Source: Lunularia cruciata (taxonomy: Eukaryota > Streptophyta > Marchantiopsida > Lunulariales > Lunulariaceae). Taken from it: DNA of 64,000 nucleotides. The notes under the pieces were generated by a model, which searched no databases, had not been told where the DNA came from, and saw only the letters and a program-made list of their open reading frames with translations. Position numbers and translations under genes: made by a program. This document shows, piece after piece, positions 1-53,062 of the stretch (its first letter is position 1; each line of letters opens with the position of its first letter). The stretch is from the NCBI GenBank assembly GCA_948567375.1, contig OX419758.1:64385965-64449964 (forward strand). The letters run 5' to 3'.

Positions 1-2
1 TC

Positions 3-170
3 CAAAAGCGCATGCGTGGTACTCGCCATCCGTGGGTGGAATATCCAGTACAATGGAAAGGTTACCCCCTCTGTGAAGCAACCTGGGAACCCGTTGCCAA
101 TTTGGCACATGCACCGGTGTTGGTGCAAGCATTTGAGCAACAATTGCACAACGAGGACGTTGCGTCTTAA
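3..170 (+). CDS. Chromodomain C-terminus of a Ty3/gypsy polyprotein (5' part outside window)
   Basis: Frame 3 is open from the window edge to a TAA at 168-170, giving 55 residues that end a chromovirus integrase. The key signature is YPVQWKGYPLCEATWEP, the chromodomain core (Y-x-V-x-W-K-G-Y ... A-T-W-E-P), followed by a short tail ending NEDVAS. In chromoviruses this domain guides integration, often to heterochromatin. A purine-rich tract and an LTR follow directly, so this is the 3' end of a plus-strand element whose body lies to the left. The same tail recurs at 16,099-16,296, which places both in one family (family 1). No disabling change is visible in this short piece, but most related copies here are dead. 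Confidence 0.88.
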   Translation, partial: QKRMRGTRHPWVEYPVQWKGYPLCEATWEPVANLAHAPVLVQAFEQQLHNEDVAS

Positions 171-183
171 AAGGAGGGAGGTC
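171..183 (+). other. Polypurine tract of the family 1A chromovirus
   Basis: The purine run AAGGAGGGAGG sits between the polyprotein stop codon and the TG that opens the LTR. This is the expected place and composition for the plus-strand primer of reverse transcription. Confidence 0.7.
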
Positions 184-875
184 TGTAATACCAAGGGTTA
201 GCCATATGATCTAGATGTGAAATTTGGTTTGGTAACATCTAGAATGATGTTATACATGATGATCAAAATAGATCAGATAGAAGTATCACCAAAAGAGTAC
301 TTCTATTAATAGGGCAAAAACCAAAATAGACTTGAGAACCTTAGAACCAATAACTAGACATATGATTTAAAGGTGAGAATTGGTTTGGTAACATCTGGAA
401 GGATGTTACACATGATGGACTAAACAGATCCAAAAGAGGTATCACCAAAAGGGGACTTCTACTAATAGAGTAGGAACCGAAATATGCCTGAAATCTTTGA
501 AGGCAATTTTGGAAGCCTAAACGGATGAATTAGGCCTCGAAAATGTGCAGAATTTCCCCCACCAAAGGAAGGCTAGCCTTCCCTCCCCCTTGCTTTGTCT
601 CGTCAAGAACTTTCCAATGGTACCTTACTCATGTGATCCTGAGATTCCTACAGGAAGATTCCCTAAAAGATTCCCTCCAGTCAAAGCTTGTTTGACCAAC
701 CAGAAAGGACCTAGACTAGACAGGTCACCCATCCAAGTAAGTAATCCTATGGTGGAGCTTCCTTGGAGGAGATCCTCTTTATCTATATAATAAAGAGAAG
801 GTGCTCCCTTGGGGCATCGAATGTTTGAGTGTGCAATCTGTGTTTTCTTTCTTCTCTTGTCCTCGGAGTATTACA
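184..875 (+). mobile_element. 3' LTR of a Ty3/gypsy chromovirus (family 1A)
   Basis: This 692-bp LTR starts TGTAATACC and ends GTATTACA, so its ends are short inverted repeats. It contains an internal tandem duplication with a period near 156 bp: the segment CATATGATCT...GGTAACATCT...TATCACCAAAAG...TACTTCT occurs from about 203 and again from about 359. A TATATAATAAAG promoter-like box lies near 784-795. The LTR directly abuts the minus-strand methyltransferase element, so this chromovirus inserted into or beside it. The other end and the target duplication are outside the window. Confidence 0.85.
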
Positions 876-1811
876 GCTGTCCAACTAGGTTCACCATTGC
901 CATGGATGACCTATCAACCACTACCATTGTTTGAGAGTGACGCCCAACATCCAAGATGTCATCGATGAGGATGTGGTCAAGTCGTTGAATCCCATCATAA
1001 GCATGATGTAAAACCTCTCTAGGTAAGAGGTTTGTCTACCAAAGATGAAGACGATGAGCCCGTGATCCCACTCTTGCTGCATCTAACAATACAATCGGTC
1101 CCATCCAAGAATGGACCTGATGTGTACTTGCCATCACTCTGGTGTGAGAATCACCCATCAAAGGCATGTTCTCCAAAAGGTAAGCTTGAGAAACAGATTG
1201 ATGAACCTAGAGATGTCATAGTATCTGTAACAACTCCCAAAATACACCAAAATGAGGATCCTAAAGATCCAAACTGTGGCCCATGCGTGTATATCCCTAA
1301 CATGGCCATCCAAAAATCACCAAGTGAATAGGCCCATGTATTTCTAGATCATGCGCCCCTAGTAAGGAAATGTCTGCTGGTAGGACCTTCTGGTAACCCT
1401 TGATTGCTGACATCGATAATAACTCCGGATATCGATAGGCCAAGTGTGGCACATGATGTAGAGAGACTTGCCTAGCAGTCTCATCTCTCTTTACATACAA
1501 GTACCTTTGTGCTCGTATACCCACTTGTAATAACGTAGCTAGTCCCGTGCTAATCCAACCAAACAACTCCAATAGACATATCCTCTCTACTGGATACTGC
1601 CAAGCAATGAGTGTGGTATCCAAAGGTGTCAAAGCAATCGACTCTACATGCTCATCCTCAATGGTACAAAGGCTCCACACCAAGCCTATTGCACCAACTA
1701 ATCTGCATGCTACAACAATGCCTCCTCAAAACTCCACAATGGAACAATCCCACTTGTACTCCAAGTCCAAGTGATCTCCTATGGTACTAGAGTATCCTCT
1801 GCATGGGCGTT
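876..1811 (-). pseudogene. Cytosine-5 DNA methyltransferase domain carried by a retrotransposon (pseudogene)
   Basis: One continuous minus-strand frame (codon low ends at 1 mod 3) carries C5-methyltransferase landmarks in the correct order. Motif I is LLELFGWISTGL (1540-1575), the SAM-binding loop. Motif IV is GPIHLVIFGWPC (1300-1335), the catalytic PC. Motif VI is AYLLENMPLMGD (1150-1185), the ENV-type glutamate. A motif VIII-like stretch, GSRAHRLHLW then TNL, lies at 1027-1068. The LFxGIxTGL, GPIxLVI and AHRxxxxWxN wording resembles DNMT3-type enzymes more than DNMT1. Six stops (TGA 1726, TAG 1297, TAG 1261, TGA 1216, TAG 1207, TAG 1036) break it without a frameshift; the one at 1297 replaces the Gln expected after PC. 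The C-terminal part is cut off at the LTR junction. It is clearly dead; its ancestor would have methylated cytosines. Confidence 0.8.
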
Positions 1812-1829
1812 CCCCCCCCCCCCCCCCCC
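1812..1829. repeat. 18-base poly-C (poly-G on coding strand)
   Basis: Eighteen consecutive C residues. On the coding (minus) strand this G-run lies where the protease/linker frame gives way to the methyltransferase frame, so homopolymer slippage could account for the frame change. Its length may also be unreliable in an assembly. Confidence 0.9.
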
Positions 1830-2905
1830 AACAAATCACCAGGCCAAGTAATTGCACCATTGAAAGCTAAAACTGATGTTCCCATCGTCCCAAGTTGTAG
1901 TAAGCCAAGACTACCACTACTAAAGCATATCGGTAGGCAACATACCCGTCCCTCACCAAACTGCCAACTAGGTCTATAGGAGACTATCTCCTCCCAATAG
2001 TCAATGCTGAAACCCATGGGGTATAACACTACTCCCCCAACTAGCACATCATATGACTCAACTATTGTCGCAATAGCCTAAGCTCTCACCACCGAGCTAT
2101 CAATCGGATGACTAGGCTGAATCTGGACAACAAGCTCCCCACGTGTGATGTACTATGTTGAACCACCACCTAGAGATGTCTGGATCTGAAATGGACACCT
2201 CTCCACATCGGTCTTTTATAACTCCAAATCGACCACTACAGCCTTTCCCAACATAAGGGGCTACGCACCAGAGTCTAACAAGACTCTTTGTGGTGTATAG
2301 ACATTCCCTGAAGGTCCTACCAAATGGAAAATCCTCCTCTGGTTATCCAATAGGACAACACCAAGTGTGAACCACGCTCTCTCAAAGGCCGGTCTAGTTG
2401 GCAACTTCTCCAGTCTAGCTGCTACTGCCTGCCATAAACCAATAGTCGCTGAACGGATCCCATGCTCTTCAACCAAGTTAGCTCCACTACCAACCACCTC
2501 TACTCTAGTAGTAGGAAATGCATCATCCCTACTCTCACAAATCGTGGTAGCCAACCAGAACACTAGGGTTGGGTCAACTCCCAATCTAAACATGTCACTG
2601 GCTAAAAACAAAGGATGCCACATAATCAGTAGAGCCGCCCCCAACATCATGCTAGACTCAATTTGTGTAGTAGCAGGTGGCTGACTAGCAAGTAGTCCAT
2701 CATGCAATCCATCACCACCTACCACACCTACACTAGGATGTCTAGGAGCCATGGATGTTGTCTGCAATGCCTCGGATAGCATGAAAGATTGGGGAAGTCT
2801 GACCTGTCTCCATACCTCTCCTCTCTGTAGGTCCAACTCCATTGATGCTCCTCTGGGCTTTGGAGCACATACTGCACTCCTAGTAACTACTATAGATGCA
2901 TCCAC
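1830..2905 (-). pseudogene. Retropepsin and flanking linker of the methyltransferase-bearing retrotransposon
   Basis: The minus frame 2905-2261 ends RVLLDSGA followed by a stop. DSGA is the retropepsin active-site motif, normally followed by a glutamine in this kind of element, so CAG to TAG is the simple explanation. The same frame resumes downstream with PLMLGKA, then a second protease-like half, SYDVLVGGVVLYPMGF, near 2000-2060, and runs open to 1787. This enzyme would cleave the Gag-Pol polyprotein. The upstream part (2905-2300) is low in recognisable motifs and probably joins nucleocapsid to protease. Several nonsense codons show that it is not functional. Confidence 0.65.
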
Positions 2906-4458
2906 CTATGTTGCTCCGCACATGAAATCCAAAGTATCTCTATCACCAACATATAAGGTGGAAGCCTCAGCACCCGAATCTAATCTCCTCTGAGCAATAG
3001 CCATACTAGCTAATCTCTGCTCCAACTGCTCAATCCGAGTAGCCATAGTTATATCAAAAGTAAGGGTAGGTATTGCACTCCTACTAGGTGTAGATCCTCT
3101 ACCACCACCTTTACCACCTTGTCCTCCATGAACTTGAGCTCCTCTACTACCTGCCATAACAACGCTACCACTTTGTAACTCCAGGTGTAGGTCAAAACAT
3201 CGGTCACTAATGTGACCAAATCTATGGCAATGCTCATACTGCCTCTGTGTTGGCTGTGATGCACTAGAGGTATCCGGTCCACTGCCTTGAGTACACTCTC
3301 TCCTATGGTGAGGTCCACCACAAGTCCAACAAACAACACTACCACTCATTGGCTGCTACTGACCCAAAAATGAAGGTAAGGGTCTAGCTCCACTAGGCCC
3401 TCCACTCGCTCCATAGGATCTAGGTTGTCTACCCTATCCTTGAAAACCAACTGGGCATGGTGCACTCTACTGCACTCTAGAAGAAGTCACAGCCGTGGAT
3501 GAGGTCTCCCTACCAAATCCAGATGTCACCACTCTCTCCTCCACCATGTTGAGCTCAATACGCTCAGCCAAACCAAAGACCATAGGCAAAGTAGGCAAAG
3601 TAGCCTATAACAAAGTAGCATCACAAACTCTATGTCGCAACTCCATTTCCAAATCCCATACCAAAATTGGACTACCTAGGCCTTAGTAGCTCCTTGAGTG
3701 AAACTGATCAGCCACCTCATGTGAGTGTATGCCTTGCGTAGGCTCTCTCTAGCCTTCCGTTGGAACTCCTACAAGCTCCTTAGCTTGTTAGTTTGCACTC
3801 CTTGGTAGTTCTACGTCAAACACTGGAAGAACTCTACCATGGGGTTAAACCCCGATACCACACCACCTCTTGTAGTGGCACCTCCACTCGTGGTAACACT
3901 ATCTCCAGCTAGTGCACCTTCACTAGCTCCACCAACACTACTCAAGCTAGAACTCGTAGGTACAGCCGATCTACTCTTGGCCACCGAGCCTAAAGTGATA
4001 GAGACATAGTTTGGAGACCAATACTATCTCCATAACTCAATCTCCTCCAAATGAGCTCTCCTGAACTCATGATAGTCATCCATTGGCGGACCCTCCAAAT
4101 GTTGAAACAACCTCTTCCATGCCATGAAGGGTGTGAACAAAGTCGGGTTTTGCATTTGCTACAGATCACACCAAGTATCAAACTCTTGGATGAAGTCATC
4201 CAACTCAATGGTACCCATTGTACTAGAGTAATGCCTAGGGCCTTTGGAGGCCCCATAAATCTTGTCCATGTCCCACAACAATGGTGCAGACACACCAAGT
4301 GCACTCTCAATTGAATCAGCTCCTATGTCAAACTCCAACTCAAAGTCAATCTCCTCCCTCACTAGGACCTGAGATATAGGCTGATACTGAGCGCCACTCT
4401 GAGTAAACCCATTGCGTATTGTAGGGCTAACTCCTCTAGAATCCTCGACAAACTCCAT
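2906..4458 (-). pseudogene. Gag of the methyltransferase-bearing retrotransposon, with two zinc knuckles
   Basis: A plausible gag start is the ATG at 4458-4456 (MEFVEDSRG). Downstream come FIQEFDTWCDL and then, broken by stops and frame changes, a Retrotrans_gag-like helical region (FQRKARESLRKAYTHMR, then VVQFWYG). Two nucleocapsid knuckles follow. The first, CWTCGGPHHRREC (3293-3331), is a CX2CX3HX4C form seen in plant Gag proteins. The second, at 3197-3238, reads YEHCHRFGHISDRC and has lost its first Cys. Gag packages the RNA genome. The serine/glycine/threonine-rich stretch around 3800-4000 looks like a linker. The frame is degraded throughout. Confidence 0.65.
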
Positions 4459-4881
4459 CGTGATAAAGTAACCGTAACTACAACCGCAAACCGGGACCAC
4501 AAACTGCAACCGCAAGTCACAACCGCAAGTACCCTACCAAGTGCTAACACCACCAAGTGCCAATACCAACTAAGCACCACCCACTAATGTAACTCTAACG
4601 GAGATAACTACACTAGGGGATATAGCAACATGTAACTTGCCATCACAACATGCACTCTCATGGTTTGAAGGTCATCACTTCTTGCCTCACTGGAGAGAAA
4701 CAAAGGTAGTCTTATTGGCCATCACTCTAGCCTCACTACCAAGAGCACACCAGAGCACCAACGCTAAAAAATTAGGGCACCTCACACAAACATGGTACAC
4801 AAATAGGAAGTAGAGAATGGAAGGGGTCCAATCACAAAAAATCTAAACAAAAACCCTCCATCTCCTAAAACAACATGGGAT

Positions 4882-4895
4882 TGACTCTGCTATCA
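4882..4895 (-). other. Primer binding site (initiator tRNA-Met type) of the minus-strand element
   Basis: The minus strand reads TGATAGCAGAGTCA, which differs at three positions (two of them transitions) from TGGTATCAGAGCCA, the common initiator tRNA-Met site of plant LTR elements. It lies just upstream of gag, as expected. Confidence 0.6.
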
Positions 4896-4897
4896 CT

Positions 4898-5951
4898 TGG
4901 CATTTGACATAAGAGAAGTTCGTATCTTAGTCCTAAGCTACCAGGATCATTAATAATAGGATCAAACTGCCTCTTCTAGCCAAAGCTACAAGTGTATAGA
5001 TAACAATGGCATAATCACTAGGACAACAAGTGAAGGTGTACCAGTTGGCTAGGGCACCAGTCTAGGAACAAGAGATCTAGGGGTCAAACCTTGTTGCGCA
5101 CAATCTGGTAGGATGGGCAGATTTTGCCAACCAATGACTAAGATCTACTTTAAACTAGCCAGCCTCACGCCAACAAGTTGGCTTTTTGGCCCTTCTAGGC
5201 CTTTGTAGCCGCTCATAGCCCATAGCCCATAGCCTATGCCTCAAAGCCTCTAAACGCCAAAGGAGACATTTCTTCTTGCCACTTCCAACCTCTTCCAAAA
5301 TTTGGCAAAACTCTTCCAAACTTGCAAAATTCCTCTAACTTGGTGAAAGTCTTCCAAATCTGGCCAAAATTTGATGTAAAATCCAACCAAAATCTGATGT
5401 AAAATTTGACATGAACCCTAAATTTGGCTGACCACCAAATCCCCTACTAACTCTTCACTCGAGCCAAATTGAAAACATGGGTTTCTCCAAATAACAAATT
5501 CCCAAGAATAGGTTCCTAACTCAACCTTTAATTTTACTTTGTGAGCCCAACTTGCAACAAATTTGTCTTGCCTTCACCTATTGAGCTCAAAATCACAACC
5601 AATGCTTGAAATTTTCTCCTTCTTTGCTCAAAAATTGGCCAGCACTTTCGCACACCATCTGCCTTATTGCCAAATCTACATCAATTGAAGAAGCTTTTAC
5701 ACACTAGGGAGAAACAAACTTGAATCGAGCTACCAATGATCCACCAAGCTTGGAGATACCACAAATATTCAAAGTTCCTACACCCGATTTCCCCCTAACT
5801 TCACTTCTTTGATGTTATCAAATTGTTTACCACTCTCAACTCAACTCAGATCAGTACTTGATTTGTCCCTCTATAAATTGCCAATAATTGGGCACTGATT
5901 ACAGTCAAGCCACACCCACTCCAGCATAGAGAATCTAGGTGACATTTGCCA
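4898..5951 (-). repeat. Probable 5' LTR of the methyltransferase-bearing element (boundaries uncertain)
   Basis: This non-coding stretch begins TGGCATTTGACAT immediately beyond the PBS and contains GACATTTGCCA near 5941-5951, which could be the other end. No second LTR copy is available in the window for comparison, so the boundaries rest only on position and weak end similarity. The tract is rich in CCAAA/TTGGC motifs and holds no coding sequence that I can support. From 5952 to 6239 I see nothing identifiable. Confidence 0.3.
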
Positions 5952-6249
5952 GCCTCTGTCTGCCATAGCCAAGAACTCAAAAGCTCAACATTAGAGAAGT
6001 GAGCTCTCTAGAGCTGCACTTTGAAATTATACCCCCTGGACTCAAGCTAGGTTTGAAACCTAGCGGTCCCACTAACTGCACACTTGACGGTGCAAGCAGT
6101 GCAAAGTGATGGTGGGCCCCACCGTGAAGTCAATACCCCAAACATGAAATTTGACTGTCGGAAAGTAGTCTTTGAGAAACTGTTGAAATAACTCTAATTA
6201 CTATCACTAGAACTCTAGTGTCTGAGCAATCTAGATGCAACACTACAAA

Positions 6250-6806
6250 TGACATGACAAATTCAAGTACAACACCAAGGTATGAATTACCAATTAGGTT
6301 ATATCTTGCACCTTTGAGTAAGACATCTAAGATTAGTCAGTCCCAAGATGTGAAGTTTGTCAATAAAGTAACCATAGAGCAAGCTTTGGATAAACTTATT
6401 GAAGATAAACTTATTTTTGCGGTTGCACATGGAAAAATTGATGAGGGCCAGAAGCCTCATCAAACAATGGTTGATCAAATAGTTCAAGAGTTTGCAAATA
6501 TGTTTCCAAGTGATTTTCCAAAGAGGTTACCCTCCAATCGTATTACACCCTTCAAGATTGAGTTATTGCCATGAATTACTCTAATGAGCAGACCAATCTA
6601 TTGGATCTCACCAAAGGAGTTGGACGAGCTCCAAACAACATTGAGAAAGCTATTGGAGAAGGATTTCATATACATAGTAAATCTCCTTGGGTAGCACCAA
6701 TATTATTTATGCCAAAGAAGGATGGAGGACATCACTTTTGTATTGATTATTGTGGCCTTAACAAACAAATAGTGAAGAATGCTTATCCCTTGCCTTGAAT
6801 TGATTA
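6250..6806 (+). pseudogene. RT N-terminal part of family 2 Pol, copy 1
   Basis: The piece encodes the linker before RT (VDQIVQEFANMFPSDFP, then FKIELLP) and the start of [22 protein letters not shown] followed by YPLP, the classic Ty3/gypsy fingers region (KKDGxxRxCxDYRxLN). A frameshift and a stop near 6572 break the frame. The sequence stops at the target site of the solo LTR and resumes at 7715. Confidence 0.8.
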
Positions 6807-6811
6807 TTTGT

Positions 6812-7709
6812 TATAATACCAATAGCTAGACATATTATCTAAAAGTAAAGATTTGCTTGATAACATCTAGAAGGATGTTATATATGATGGAATAAGTAGA
6901 TCAGATAGAGATATCACCAAAAGAGTACTTCTACTAATAGAGCAAAAGCCAAAAATAACCAAAAAACTTTAGAGCCAATTTTGGAGGCCTAAACAGATGA
7001 ATTAGGCCTCAAAAATGGATGTAGCCTTCACTCCTTAAGAAAAAGAGGCTTGTATTCTCCCCCCACTATTTTTCTCATCAAGAGCTTTCTAATGGGACCT
7101 CACCCATGTGATGTTGACCTTCCTACAAGAAGATTCCCTAAAGATTCACTTTGGTCAAATGTGTTTGACCAACTAGATAGGACAAGGATCAATATGTCAC
7201 CCACCCAAGTAACTAATGTAATGGTGGTGCTTGTATACATGTCACCCATTGTAACAACATGGGTTTTAGTGACAAAGTTAGTTATGGCTAATGAAGTAGC
7301 AAATAGGACAAATTAGCCTAAAATATTCCAAAAGCATTTAGGAAGCTTCCCAACTAGCTTAGCTTGCACGCCAAGTAAGCAACTTCTAGAAGGAAGCCTC
7401 TTGAGAAGCTTCTCAAGGCCTTGTATACTCCCTATAAATACCAAGCCAAAGCTCATGCTAGTCATTCAGAGTTTCTCACACTCAAGTGTCCTAATGTGAT
7501 CTTCCATTCTCCTATTGCTCTGCTCAATCTCGGTCTTTTACACCCATCCATGTATTTGATCCAAGGGTGGAGTTCCCTTTGAGAGGTTCCTCCTTTTGAC
7601 TATATAATAAAGTCAAGGTGCTCCTTTGGAGCATTGGAATATTGAGTGTGAAGCTTTGTCTTTCTTCCCTTGTGTTTCTCTCAAGGTCTCTTATCATTGG
7701 AAGTTTACA
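6812..7709 (+). mobile_element. Family 1B solo LTR inserted in the RT of the family 2 element
   Basis: It starts TATAATACC (from TGTAATACC) and ends TTTACA. The flanks are TTTGT (6807-6811) and CTTGC (7710-7714), a 5-bp target duplication differing by two C-to-T changes. The uninterrupted paralogue near 32,116 reads GATTACTTGCTTGATC, confirming the insertion point. Without the nested 298 bp it is about 600 bp, matching the LTR at 16309-16894. Unlike family 1A it has a single copy of the internal 156-bp unit. Confidence 0.85.
7250..7542 (+). mobile_element. Family 2 solo LTR nested inside the family 1B solo LTR
   Basis: The insert runs TGTAACAAC...TTTTACA and is flanked by perfect 5-bp duplications CCCAT at 7245-7249 and 7543-7547. 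It is 293 bp, the shortest family 2 LTR here, with one copy of the internal repeat unit (GCTTGCACGCCAAG). A TATAAATA box lies near 7433. It is the youngest of three nested insertions at this spot. Confidence 0.9.
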
Positions 7710-7714
7710 CTTGC

Positions 7715-10220
7715 TTGATCAATTGAGTGGAGCACAATAATTTTTCAAGTTGGATCTCGACTATCGGCAAATTCCCATCAACAAAGAAGATGTGCAAAAG
7801 ATTGCCTTTTGCACAAGGTATAGGTATTTTGAGTGGAGAGCTCTGCCTTTTGGGCTCACTAATGCTCAAGCAGTCTTCATAGATCAGATGCATTGGGTGT
7901 TTGATGGGCTATTAGATTGATACATGGTGGTGTTCTTGGATGATATTTTAATTGATAGTAGGACAAAGGTAGAACACACAAATCACATGTGAGAAGTCCT
8001 ATGATGACTACATTAATGGAAGTTATATTGCAAGAAGTCAAAGTGTGCCTTTTGGTAGAAAGAAGTTACCTTCTTGGGTCACAAGATCTCATTGGAGGGG
8101 GATCAAGATGGAAGAGGAGAAAATCAAGGCCATTATTAATTGGCTTACTTTGAAAGATTCTATAGAAATATGGGCATTTAATGGATTGGTAAGTTTTTAC
8201 TAACAATTCATCCACAACTATGCTCATGTGACTGCACCATTGACTAACCTCTTGGGGAAGAACTTGAGGTTTCAATGGACCACCAAGCACAAAGAAGCAT
8301 TCTAGAAGCTAAACATATGATTTCTTCAAGACCCATTCTTCAACCATATGACACTCCACTACCTTGTGTGGTTGATTTTGATATTTCTAACTTTGCAATT
8401 GGAGTTGTGTTGCATCAAGAATTCCTAGATGTGTTACATCCCATTGCCTTTGTGTCTCACCAACTAAACACTATAGAAAGGAGTTACTTTGCTTGAAACT
8501 AGGAACAAGTAACAATGGTATATGCCACCAAGGTATGGAGGCATTATCTCTTTGAGAAACAAATGATCATGTGAATTGATCATAAACCCTTGTTGCATAC
8601 ATTACATTTGGAACAAATGAAGAGTCAATATCATCAATGGGAGGAACAACTACAACTTTTTGACCTCACACTTGAGTACAAACCCAATAGGTTCTATGTC
8701 ATCCACAATGCCTTATCACAACGACTTGATTTGAAGTCTCTTCCTCTCATCACAATGGAAATTACAACACTATCAATTGACTAAAAGGTCCAAATTAAGT
8801 TTAGGATTGCTTTACAACAAGATCCCTTCTTCAAATGGTACAAGGTTGTCTTGCTACACATGACAATGAATACAATGCCTTCTCTTTTAAAGAAGGCCTT
8901 CTATTTTGGGAGAACCGGATCTATGTTCCAGCCAAGGGCGATCTATGATTTGTGCATCTTCAAGAAGCCCATGATTTACCAATCGCTGGTCACATGGGTA
9001 TAGACAAGACCTTGGATACCCTACAATGTCAATGGTGATGGCCCAAGATGGCACAAATGTCCTAGAGTTTGTTCAATCAATCTTGTGAGAGCTGCCAATA
9101 CAACAAAGCTAGCAACTAGAAACCAAGTGGACTCCTTCAACCGCTTCCCATCCCATATGCTTGATGGGAATATGTGAGCTTAGATCTCATCACATCCTTG
9201 CCCAAGACAACACAAGGTCACACAACAATCATGGTATTTGTGGATAAGCTTAGTAAGAAAATTCATTTGACATCAACCTTTGATACATTGGATGCTCCAA
9301 CATTGGTTTGGATCTACTTTGACAATATCTTCAACCGTGATCCTCATTTCATCGGAAAATTTTTGCAAGTACTCTCCTAGATACTTGGCACCAAGCTTGC
9401 TTTGTCCACGGCCTATCATCCTCAAATTGATGGACAAACCAAATATACAAATTGCACTTTGTAGGATATGCTTTGTGCTTGTGTCAACATTAATCATACC
9501 AATTGGGATGTGTATCTTGTAGCTAATGGAATTGCCTATAATAATTTCAAATAGATAAGCATCAAATTCTCTCCTTTCCTCCTTAATTTTGGTCAAGATC
9601 CACTTGTTCTAGATTCCCTTCTTGCTCCTCTTCCATCTCATGTCCCTCATATTTCCATCTTTTTGATCCCATATCTCAATCCCTACAACAAGCCAAATCT
9701 CATCTCCTTGTTGCTCAAAATTGTCAAAAACAACATGCAAACCAACATAATTCTGATCTCATTTTTCAAGTTGGTGATAAGGTCATGCTTTCTTCTAGTG
9801 ACCTACCTCTTCCACTTGATACCCAAGTCTATAAACTTGCTCTTAATTGGATATTTCTATTTGATATCACTCAAATCATTTCTCTTATTGCTTATCGACT
9901 TGCATTGCCTTCTCATATGCAAGTCCAACTTGTCTTTCACATTAGAAACCCTTTGTTTCTAATCCATCTTCCTTTTCCTCTTGTGTCCAACTCCCTCCTC
10001 CTCATGTGCTTATCAACAATCATGAGGAGTATGAAGTTGATTGTATCCTTGCACATTTGATGTAATTGCCAATAACATATTGAGTACACGGTCTTTTGGA
10101 AAGGGTATCCCCTTCATGATACCACTTGGGAGCCTCTTTCTCATCTCCAGAATGCACAAATAGCCATCCAAGAGTTTGAAGCTTCAATGGTAATAAGGAT
10201 GTCACCAACTAGCAGTGGGA
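7715..10220 (+). pseudogene. RT, RNase H, integrase and chromodomain of family 2 Pol, copy 1
   Basis: After the nested LTRs RT resumes (LPFGLTNAQAVF, then VVFLDDILI containing the catalytic DD). RNase H follows (FAIGVVLHQE and HPIAFVSHQLNTIE, 8275-8496), then the integrase core beginning SLDLITSLPKT and MVFVDKLSKKIH (9174-9380), and a chromodomain-like end (FWKGYPLHDTTWEP) near 10,090-10,140. Many stops and frame changes interrupt it. Together these would have synthesised cDNA and inserted it. Confidence 0.8.
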
Positions 10221-31779: not shown

Positions 31780-33180
31780 TCTTCAAGCAATGGTTGATCA
31801 AATATTTAGGAGTTTGTGGATGATCTATCAGAGGGATTACCCCCCAATCGTGGTATGCCCTTCAAGATTGAGTTATTGCCAGGGAGTACTCTAATGAGTA
31901 GACCAATCCATTGGCTCTCACTAAACAAGTTGGAAGAGTTGCAAATAACACTTATGGAGTTGTTGGAGAAGGATTTCATAAAACATAGTACATCTCTTGG
32001 GGATCATTGGTACTATTTGTTCTAAAGAAGGATGGAGGACTTTGTTTCTATATTGATTATAGTGGACTCAATAAATAAACAATGAAGAGTGCATATCCCT
32101 TGCCTTGAATTGATTACTTGCTTGATCAGTTGAGTAGAGCACAATACTTCTCCATGTTGGATCTTTGCAATGCCTATTGGCAAATCCCCATTGATAGAGA
32201 AGATATGAAAAAGATTGCCTTTTAAACAAGGTATGGGCATTTTGAGTGGAGAGTTCTACCTTTTGGGCTCATTAATACTCTTCATGGATCAGATGCATCG
32301 GATGTTGGATGGACTATTGGATTGATACATGGTGGTGTTCTTGGATGATAGCTTAATCTATAGCAAGACAGAGTTAAAACACATGGATCATGTGCCAGAG
32401 TCCAAAGACGACAACAACAATGGAAATTTTCTCCCAAGAAGTTGAAGTGTGCCTTTTGGGAGAAGGAAGTTACCTTCTTGGGTCACAAGATCTCATCAAA
32501 GGAGATCAAGATGGAAGAGGAAAAAAGCAAGAGCATTACTGATTGGCCTACTCCAAAAGATGCTACAAAAGTATGAACATTTAATAGATTGACCAATTTT
32601 TATCAATGGTTCATCCACTATATGCCCATGTGACCGCACCATTGAATGATCTCTTGGAGAATAACTTGAGATTTTAGTGGACCACCAAGCACAGAGAAGC
32701 ATTCCAAAAGTTGAAACATATGGTGTCTTGAAGACCCATTCTTCAACCATATGATCCTCAACTACCTTGTGTGGTTGATTTTGATGCTTCTAACTTTGTA
32801 ATTGGAGCCATGTTGTAGTAGGAATTCCCAGATGGATTACATCTCATTGCCTTTGTGTCTTCCCAACTACATACAATTGAAAAGAATTAGTCTGCTTGAG
32901 ATTAGGAACAACTAGCAATGGTATATACCACCAAAATACATAGGCATTGTCTCTTGGGGAAACAAGTGATCATGCAAACTGATCATAAACTATTGTTGCA
33001 GACATTACACTTGGAACACATGAAGAGTTGACATCATTGATGGGATGAGCAACTCCAATTTTTTGACATCAAACTTGAGTACAAACCAAGTTGGTTGCAT
33101 GTCATCCTAATGCCAATCACAACGGCCTGATTTGACATCTCTTCCTCTCATCACAATAGCCATTACAACTGTGCCAATTG
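31780..33180 (+). pseudogene. RT and RNase H of the complete family 2 element
   Basis: RT begins [20 protein letters not shown] and LEELQITLMELLEKDFI (31,857-31,990). Fingers and palm follow in shifting frames, including VVFLDDSLIYSKTE (about 32,335-32,370), where the catalytic DD is kept. RNase H-like sequence (VVDFDASNF, then HPIAFVSxQL) is visible near 32,770-32,880 but is broken by stops. The target site used by the solo LTR in copy 1 is uninterrupted here at about 32,116. Confidence 0.8.
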
Positions 33181-51728: not shown

Positions 51729-53062
51729 TCATTCGGACTCATCACAGGACAAGGCTTCAAACAGATCGTCTTCAGGATCAGAGCAGAATTCTTGAACGTC
51801 TCTTGAACTGCTACTTTCAGGCCAGCGTGGAGGAGGCGACTGAGTTGTGTCCTCTTCGTCGTACACCTTACCAGGGCCATGATTGTAAGGAGGCTCTGTC
51901 AACAAACAGTACAAGTTTCTGAGCAACGGTGAAAGGCCCGTTTCTCCAGTTTCCTCCCATGTTACAATCGACCGAAGTTGGAAGGAACTATAAACATGTC
52001 ATTACAGTACAGTGACTGCGGTCGGTTCTGAGGATGAACTGCTACAGTAAAATTTAAATGGATGGAACTTTGACTTACTGGGAGTTTCATTGCCCTTGGT
52101 GCTTTTGGACCGTGGTAGGGACTTCACGGCAGCAGCTTGATAGGTTTTGAACAGTTGTGACACATCTGTCAACTGATCTGAGTCTCCCTTCCTCGAATCC
52201 TCCTCGAAAGTCAGAAGCTGGTGTATCTTGGGCAAAACAATTTTGAGGGCAGCCTCCATGAGCGGTTTAGAGCCAGACTTGTATGCAACCTCTAACGCCC
52301 AGTCCAGGTTCCTGACAATGAGCTTGCTCTTCGCATGGCTTTCGCAGAACGTTAGTAAGGCTGTGGATCCCGCTTCCTTGCCCAATTGGAGTGCCCAGAT
52401 CAAGTTTTTTCTGTTCCATGTAGCTCTGTCTTTGACGTATTTCTCACAGAGACCCTGCAAGTACTTAACTTCGAACTTGACGGCAGCGCACAGAAGAGAT
52501 GGCGCATGCTTTTTCATCACATCCTGTTGCACTGCACCTGAATAGAAAAACTGCACGAATCCCAGTAATGCTTCATACGTCATATCCGGAAAGTTAATAA
52601 CCATTGTGCTCTTTTGTTTATCAGCCTCTTTCTGCTTCTCGTCCTCGCGGTCTCCGAAAGCAAATAAAGCTTGAAACACTTGGGATCTTCCTGCCTGCAC
52701 ATTACTCCGGTATACATGATATTAAAAACGTGATTAACTGTCTATTCTAAAGGCAAATCTCATAGTAACTCTCTATTTGAGGAGAATTTGTACAAGGGTG
52801 CGAGACTTGGGAGTACCAGAATGGCTTTGTGAGAAGGAACTGGTTGCCCATGCTTGGCGATGAGCTTCACGTCTGAAAAGAGTCCCGCACTAACTGAGCT
52901 CCATGTTGTGAGAAAACTCTGTTTCTCCACTCCCTCTTCCAGTAAAAACTCAACATGCTTCATTCGACATTGTTTGCAGTATTTATGCTTGGCTGATTCA
53001 TCCACTTGCTGGCTGTAGACCGCATCCTTGTCCGGATAACCACCACACACAGGACACAACAT
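51729..53062 (-). CDS. BTB/POZ domain protein with N-terminal zinc ribbon, 3 exons, 342 residues
   Basis: Exons on the minus strand: 53062-52817, 52694-52079, 51895-51729. Introns are GT-AG and the sum is 1,029 nt in one frame. The start ATG gives MLCPVCGG; Cys3, Cys6, Cys29 and Cys32 form a CX2C-X22-CX2C zinc ribbon. The BTB fold begins FSDVKLIAKHGQPVPSHKAI across the first intron into GRSQVFQALF, with FPDMTYEALLGFVQFFYSG following. Beyond is a BACK-like helical region (LLCAAVKFEVKYLQGLCEKY). The C-terminus is acidic (DPEDDLFEALSCDESE). If intron 2 is retained, the frame stops at 52,002 and gives a 312-residue form. Plant BTB proteins of this kind are thought to serve as CUL3 adaptors; the target is unknown. 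The donor GTAAGT at 52,078 supports splicing. Confidence 0.82.

Follow-up and report, generated by a model that had tools for sequence, protein, structure and literature searches.

Retrotransposons that encode a DNA methyltransferase (DNMT) of the DNMT3 type have been described in a charophyte and in Symbiodinium. KnitGypsy-Dnmt3 of the charophyte Klebsormidium nitens is a Gypsy element with a DIRS-like repeat layout, according to the legend of Fig. 4 in de Mendoza et al. (2018, PMC5890265), and the available text of that paper describes a Gypsy domain set, a DNMT3 domain in Pol, several copies and purifying selection. In the same text, SymbioDIRS-Dnmt3 of Symbiodinium has repeats arranged as A-coding-B-A-B, a DNMT3 domain in Pol, two domain orders and a tyrosine recombinase, and the DNMT3s of these Symbiodinium DIRS elements methylate CG sites de novo in yeast. 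Land plants have been stated in print to lack such elements. Here we describe a DNMT3-type domain in a Ty3/Gypsy-type element of the liverwort Lunularia cruciata, which contradicts that statement. The element was found in a 64,000-nucleotide (64-kb) stretch of contig OX419758.1 (positions 64,385,965 to 64,449,964), hereafter the window; window coordinates below 1 denote contig sequence to its left.

A DNMT3-type domain in Gag-Pol of a Ty3/Gypsy element

The original prediction placed a cytosine methyltransferase, captured by a land-plant long terminal repeat (LTR) retrotransposon, in the minus-strand frame 1811-876. We found that the left ~5.4 kb of a degraded DNMT-carrying Ty3/Gypsy-type element occupies window 876-6260 on the minus strand. 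Homology to better-preserved genomic copies runs the whole length of this piece (blastn against L010, L012, L016 and L018, 83-88% identity), and all four alignments end at 876. Searching the window by tblastn with the DNMT, gag and protease of a better-preserved copy gave matches far beyond chance, the DNMT giving one match of 240 amino acids (aa), and the reversed window, used as a control, gave no tblastn match at E 0.01. The parts of the element within the window are as follows.

877-1596, minus strand: DNMT3-type methyltransferase, first 240 of 328 aa (tblastn, 81% identity, E 8.5e-126)
1970-2386, minus strand: retropepsin-like protease (tblastn, 86%, E 1.9e-75), with LLDSGA at 2264-2281 and four in-frame stops
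3197-3331, minus strand: two motifs that we take to be of the zinc-knuckle type, one at 3293-3331 (CWTCGGPHHRREC) and one at 3197-3238 with its first Cys changed
3347-4155, minus strand: degraded gag (tblastn, 82%, E 2.2e-113)
5817-6259, minus strand: A1, the direct repeat at the left terminus, which measures ~446 bp in other copies; the element starts at 6259 with TGTCA
6260-6263, minus strand: left copy of the target site duplication, AATT, read by eye; the right copy lies beyond the window

The 240 codons of 877-1596 stand in a single frame, and five of them are stops. Motif I (LLELFGWISTGL) is at 1540-1575, motif IV (GWPC) within 1300-1317, motif VI (LLENMP) at 1162-1179 and a motif VIII-like stretch (SRAHRLHLW) at 1039-1065, all on the minus strand; the catalytic Cys, the EN of motif VI and the R.R of motif VIII are also visible between the stops. 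The methyltransferase motifs thus stand in one frame, where they had been predicted. The extent had to be redrawn: the start at 1811 is out of frame with the DNMT, the element spans 876-6260 rather than 876-1811, and the gene does not stop at 876.

Position 876 is the junction of a chromodomain-bearing Gypsy insertion, and the DNMT gene goes on to the left of the window. The broken element restarts at -6330 and extends to about -10.7 kb; the remaining 88 aa of the DNMT (aa 241-328) match at -6332 to -6596 (tblastn). To the left of the insertion lie, in order, the DNMT end, reverse transcriptase (RT), RNase H, integrase and a PHD finger, 78-88% identical to other copies except for one 41-aa RT piece at 56%. 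The 5' LTR of the nested Gypsy, at -6327 to -5635, is 95.6% identical to its 3' LTR, and the 5-bp flanks of the insertion are GCTAT and GCTGT; copy L010, which is without the insertion, reads GGCTGTCC at the matching site on the same strand. The part of the nested element inside the window is:

1-875, plus strand: 3' end of the nested Gypsy, with a chromodomain at 3-167 (PF00385, E 1.6e-10) and the 3' LTR at ~184-875

The two A repeats of the window copy differ by a Kimura two-parameter (K2P) distance of 0.159. With the nested insertion and the decay of its coding region, this copy is therefore old and long, but dead and split.

The genome of L. cruciata (assembly of 566 Mb in 74 contigs) contains better-preserved copies. 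The best 150 of 11311 first-look candidates, the window's own place included, were scored; among these the worst E value was 1.1e-62, identities other than the window's own were 73-86%, and many places lay within open frames of 500-1432 aa. Long open reading frames (ORFs) of L009, L010 and L011 passed the methyltransferase profile PF00145 with 29.9-31.2 bits (cut-off 22). Downstream ORFs contained RVT_1 and RNase H; three copies (L009, L011 and L013) also had an integrase there, and two of these (L009 and L011) a PHD finger. The order RT, RNase H, DDE integrase, which is that of Ty3/Gypsy, was present in L011:107-3217 and in the L013 ORF. Protease profiles (PF13650 or PF13975) were present in some relatives. 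The full order is gag, knuckles, protease, DNMT, RT, RNase H, integrase, PHD. These results show that the Gag-Pol coding region of a Ty3/Gypsy-type element includes a cytosine-5 methyltransferase domain of the DNMT3 type. The neighbouring gag and protease, together with copies bearing PF00145, RT and integrase, support a cytosine methyltransferase inside an LTR-type retrotransposon, and in better-preserved copies the frame matching 877-1596 encodes a DNMT and not something else.

The DNMT domain of L010 found its best sequence and fold matches in DNMT3A and DNMT3B, at 19-27% identity; a single-sequence AlphaFold2 model was discarded (predicted local distance difference test score, 31). The agreement of sequence and structure for this one domain supports a DNMT3-like rather than a DNMT1-like type, as the motif wording had suggested. 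Fold and motifs are shared with the cellular DNMT3A/DNMT3B catalytic domain, whereas identity is low, the element domain is part of Gag-Pol, and no PWWP or ADD domain was listed among the ORFs scanned.

Terminal repeats, age and surroundings of the Lunularia family

The repeats of the family are arranged as A-coding-B-A-B, with A (~446 bp) at the left and B (~105 bp), A and B at the right end; a simple pair of identical LTRs was rejected on account of these B-A-B ends. The complete right end was found in 11 of the 19 loci examined, the window copy included. Four others (L009, L010, L012 and L017) were cut by the sequence stretch examined, and L011 and L013 fell short of the right end. The last two, L074 and L076, have a single B and lack A at the right end, perhaps after recombination between the two B copies, although L073/L074 keeps a matching 4-bp duplication. 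Elements begin with TGTCA and end with ACGACA (TG..CA). Target duplications were sought in ten copies chosen for showing the B-A-B arrangement, three of which could not be evaluated: 4-bp direct duplications were found by script in six of the seven evaluable copies and by eye in the seventh, the window copy (AATT), for which the scripted placement of the right end was wrong.

Split direct repeats of the type A-B-A-B are characteristic of DIRS elements, and the family has them. No tyrosine recombinase was found among the eight ORFs scanned, which carry an rve integrase instead, and the DDE integrase and the 4-bp target duplications rule out a DIRS identity. The family resembles SymbioDIRS-Dnmt3 in its A-coding-B-A-B repeats and its DNMT3 domain in Pol, with two domain orders among its relatives, and differs from it in having a DDE integrase and 4-bp target duplications. 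With KnitGypsy-Dnmt3, as the text of PMC5890265 describes it, the family shares every feature named above for that element, and it agrees with that kind of element in Gypsy domains, a DNMT3 domain in Pol and DIRS-like repeats; this likeness rests on the published description. The hosts differ, a charophyte in one case and a land plant in the other, and the main text of that paper contains no mention of the PHD finger that the Lunularia element has. A chromatin-reader-type domain after the integrase is also found in chromoviruses, where it is a chromodomain, whereas L009 and L011 have a PHD finger and no listed chromodomain.

Eleven other copies were dated by their A repeats (nine repeat pairs, minus three without a usable repeat, plus five partly covered pairs taken from whole loci). 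Their K2P distances were 0.0045-0.038, with 73 transitions and 4 transversions. These 11 copies are young, and some copies of the family are recent with catalytic residues kept. The available text on the L. cruciata genome (PMC9985172) gives an estimate of 581 Mb and bursts of Ty3/Gypsy elements, and the DNMT family may be one of these bursts. The element's plus strand in L010, L012 and L016 was enriched in CpA (1.5-1.6 observed/expected) and hardly in TpG (1.1), which could reflect coding bias or strand-specific deamination of complementary DNA (cDNA); this asymmetry was dropped as evidence because coding bias confounds it.

Other features were seen in the rest of the window. A second, diverged LTR copy of the plus-strand Gypsy (76-80%, blastn) lies at 6814-7673 (plus), directly preceded by an RT-like fragment identified by eye (ORF 6562-6798), so that the DNMT element adjoins, or sits inside, an older Gypsy element. 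Weak matches to RT (28-36%) and RNase H (27%) at 7711-8685 and 32055-32555 (plus) are other Gypsy-like remains, and a 239-aa ORF at 52005-52721 (minus) with a BTB/POZ domain (PF00651, E 1.1e-8) is likely a host gene exon.

Relatives in other genomes and constraint on the domain

With the DNMT region of P0004 as query, 116 proteins were found, 94 of them without an organism name. The named ones came from Marchantia polymorpha (15), Calypogeia fissa (1) and Sphagnum fallax (1), and from the chlorophytes Haematococcus lacustris (3), Chlamydomonas eustigma (1) and Monoraphidium neglectum (1). The nearest named relatives are liverworts, at 59-74% identity, and the predicted extension of such elements to land plants holds. 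A second search, with P0031, gave 48 matches, 29 of them new. No match in these protein searches was named Klebsormidium, within the length limits of the searches and with most of the first set unnamed. Some of the matches in Marchantia, Calypogeia, Sphagnum and Haematococcus lie on long contigs (8.8-29.6 Mb), a length that speaks against contamination; the contigs from C. eustigma (369 kb) and Monoraphidium (16 kb) give less assurance in this respect. The Marchantia relatives are annotated as 'hypothetical protein', and P0009 also bears a UniRef name beginning 'DNA (cytosine-5'. No report of such elements in a liverwort or other land plant was found in the literature searched, which comprised titles and abstract openings and covered few subscription journals and preprints.

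Domain order was compared in 149 proteins, two of which are ORFs of the Lunularia genome. The DNMT follows the protease in 49, 10 of these continuing into RT (order A, protease-DNMT-RT), and the Marchantia and Sphagnum proteins belong here; P0130 shows this bryophyte order in one frame. In the Haematococcus and C. eustigma proteins the DNMT stands between RNase H and integrase (order B, RNase H-DNMT-integrase), and 23 of the 149 are incomplete or of other order. C. eustigma P0115 combines a PHD finger with a chromodomain match below threshold. From a scan of IMG/VR, 80 of 87 confirmed loci were kept, and all 80 showed the methylase profile only, with no RT, RNase H, integrase, protease or PHD. 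They were therefore taken as free viral-contig enzymes and used for comparison only. The family profile scored 73.1 bits for a DNMT3A fragment and 63.1 bits for the best viral-contig ORF.

The motif alignment covered the 102 domains, out of 120, whose length was 296-400 aa. The catalytic Cys, the E-N of motif VI and the R..R of motif VIII are nearly invariant, and the PC of motif IV is kept in 24 of 27 order-A domains. Selection was examined in 50 loci, 37 with a full-length DNMT match and 13 stop-free. The median ratio of nonsynonymous to synonymous substitution rates (dN/dS) for the DNMT was 0.39 at dS 0.05-0.1 (33 pairs) and 0.55 at dS < 0.05 (45 pairs); the values for RT were 0.21 (149 pairs) and 0.40 (67 pairs), and gag gave 0.32 at dS 0.05-0.1 (13 pairs). 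This test is weak, since it uses stop-free copies only, all of them close relatives. Compared with Marchantia P0006, the DNMT is 73% identical and gag and protease 60% each; identities of DNMT, RT and RNase H are 70, 67 and 80% to P0010 and 66, 79 and 80% to P0019. Together, dN/dS and these identities indicate that constraint on the DNMT exceeds that on gag, is comparable to that on RT over long periods and is weaker than that on RT among recent copies.

Origin and role of the domain

Taken as a whole, we regard as probable an account in which a DNMT3-type domain in the Gag-Pol of a Ty3/Gypsy element belongs to an old green-lineage family and may serve to methylate cDNA or target. Judging from the shared layout, the family would represent in land plants an old green-lineage line to which KnitGypsy-Dnmt3 also belongs. 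An older acquisition that passed into land plants is favoured by the Klebsormidium-like repeat layout, by the PHD finger that follows the integrase and by the relatives in chlorophytes. The original prediction was right that a land-plant element has a DNMT, but a new capture, which its wording suggests, is not supported. We prefer a single ancient acquisition, after which the domain changed its place in Pol. A more detailed version is less likely than not: the enzyme would have entered a Gypsy line a single time, ahead of the chlorophyte/streptophyte split, moved within Pol and been kept beside a PHD-bearing integrase. The result would be a long-lived selfish 'write and read' module, which places CG methylation on its own cDNA or on target chromatin, reads histone H3 and has recently expanded in a large liverwort genome.

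Several observations, given here and in the next paragraph, weigh against the preferred account. Elements of the bryophyte type (order A) and the chlorophyte type (order B) may each have gained a DNMT, perhaps from hosts or viruses; two such captures are quite possible, if somewhat doubtful on balance. The DNMT takes two positions in Pol, and in 77 of the 149 proteins it stands after RT/RNase H and ahead of the integrase, which leaves room for more than one capture. A midpoint-rooted tree of the 102 domains groups 24 of the 27 order-A domains in a single clade (support 0.88) and places three elsewhere. In motif IV, 48 of 65 order-B domains have EC in place of PC, against 2 of 27 order-A domains. 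To our knowledge, EC in this motif is unusual for C5-methyltransferases. The algal P0102 scores best with viral-contig enzymes, and the DNMT3A fragment is absent from its eight best matches. Among five relatives scanned for PF00145, all of them found by similarity to the liverwort domain, only the metagenome protein P0041 passes; the profile is not listed for Haematococcus P0101 and P0102 or Sphagnum P0037, and C. eustigma P0115 reaches 16.1 bits of the 22 needed. The right ends of L074 and L076 have one B and are without A. Two separate captures fit less well with the PHD finger, which follows the integrase in 88 of 97 integrase-bearing proteins and in both domain orders. Across 48 elements, DNMT distances also correlate with RT distances (r 0.59, 0 of 2000 permutations); as L011 is the only bryophyte among them, this shows co-inheritance mainly within order B.

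The domain might instead be kept for another role, be it methylation of RNA, binding of nucleic acids or a structural function in Pol, which we consider unlikely. Its constraint is weaker than that of RT in both dS classes, 54% of the 102 domains have Glu in place of the motif-IV Pro, and the Klebsormidium domain showed no detectable methylation activity in yeast, a result called inconclusive by its authors in the available text (PMC5890265). Against another role stand the near-invariant catalytic residues, the PC kept by most order-A domains and a fold that matches enzymes solved with CpG DNA. The idea put forward with the original prediction, that self-methylation silences new copies and so limits damage to the host, also appears as a possibility in the discussion of de Mendoza et al., as far as that text is available (PMC5890265), and methylation-type decay is indeed present: C-to-T changes in the A repeats of the 11 dated copies affect 39 of 390 CG, 23 of 518 CHG and 11 of 1238 CHH sites. 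However, the nested Gypsy, the sole control pair, decays in the same order (CG 4/18, CHG 3/27, CHH 11/238), so the decay is not creditable to the element's own enzyme, and its sequence context was dropped as a sign of self-methylation. An abundant family, as judged from the best 150 of 11311 places, that is also partly recent is a poor fit with self-restraint, and we think a host-favouring role improbable. A chance resemblance of motifs, or a frame that encodes something else, can be set aside almost entirely. The original prediction had proposed a search with PF00145, and none of the eight window pieces scanned matches it, which we attribute to stops and decay; the 81% match over 240 aa to a copy with both PF00145 and a DNMT3 fold, and the empty reversed-window control, already refute this explanation.

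Under the preferred account, the Pol-borne enzyme would methylate the element's own cDNA or its target while the PHD finger guides insertion, a mechanism to which we give about an even chance. In both of its positions the DNMT is part of Pol, so it would accompany RT and integrase in the particle, and cDNA could serve as its substrate. The domain would be translated in Gag-Pol and then cut or left beside these enzymes. The predicted CG methylation by the Lunularia enzyme may fall on the element cDNA, before or at insertion, or on chromatin at the insertion site. The best PDB matches of the PHD finger include those of CHD4 and KDM5, which are readers of the H3 tail, and the finger may aim insertion by reading that tail. 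The gain for the element would be entry into tolerated, already methylated chromatin, or escape from recognition as foreign DNA.

Elements carrying DNMT3-type domains occur not only in algae and dinoflagellates but also in land plants, including the model species Marchantia. The present data add to this known kind of element a new group of hosts, a PHD finger that follows the integrase and a second position of the DNMT. Counts of DNMTs in bryophyte gene sets may include transposon ORFs. Given the presence of such elements in Marchantia, the question of why a transposon carries a silencing enzyme becomes testable in land plants.
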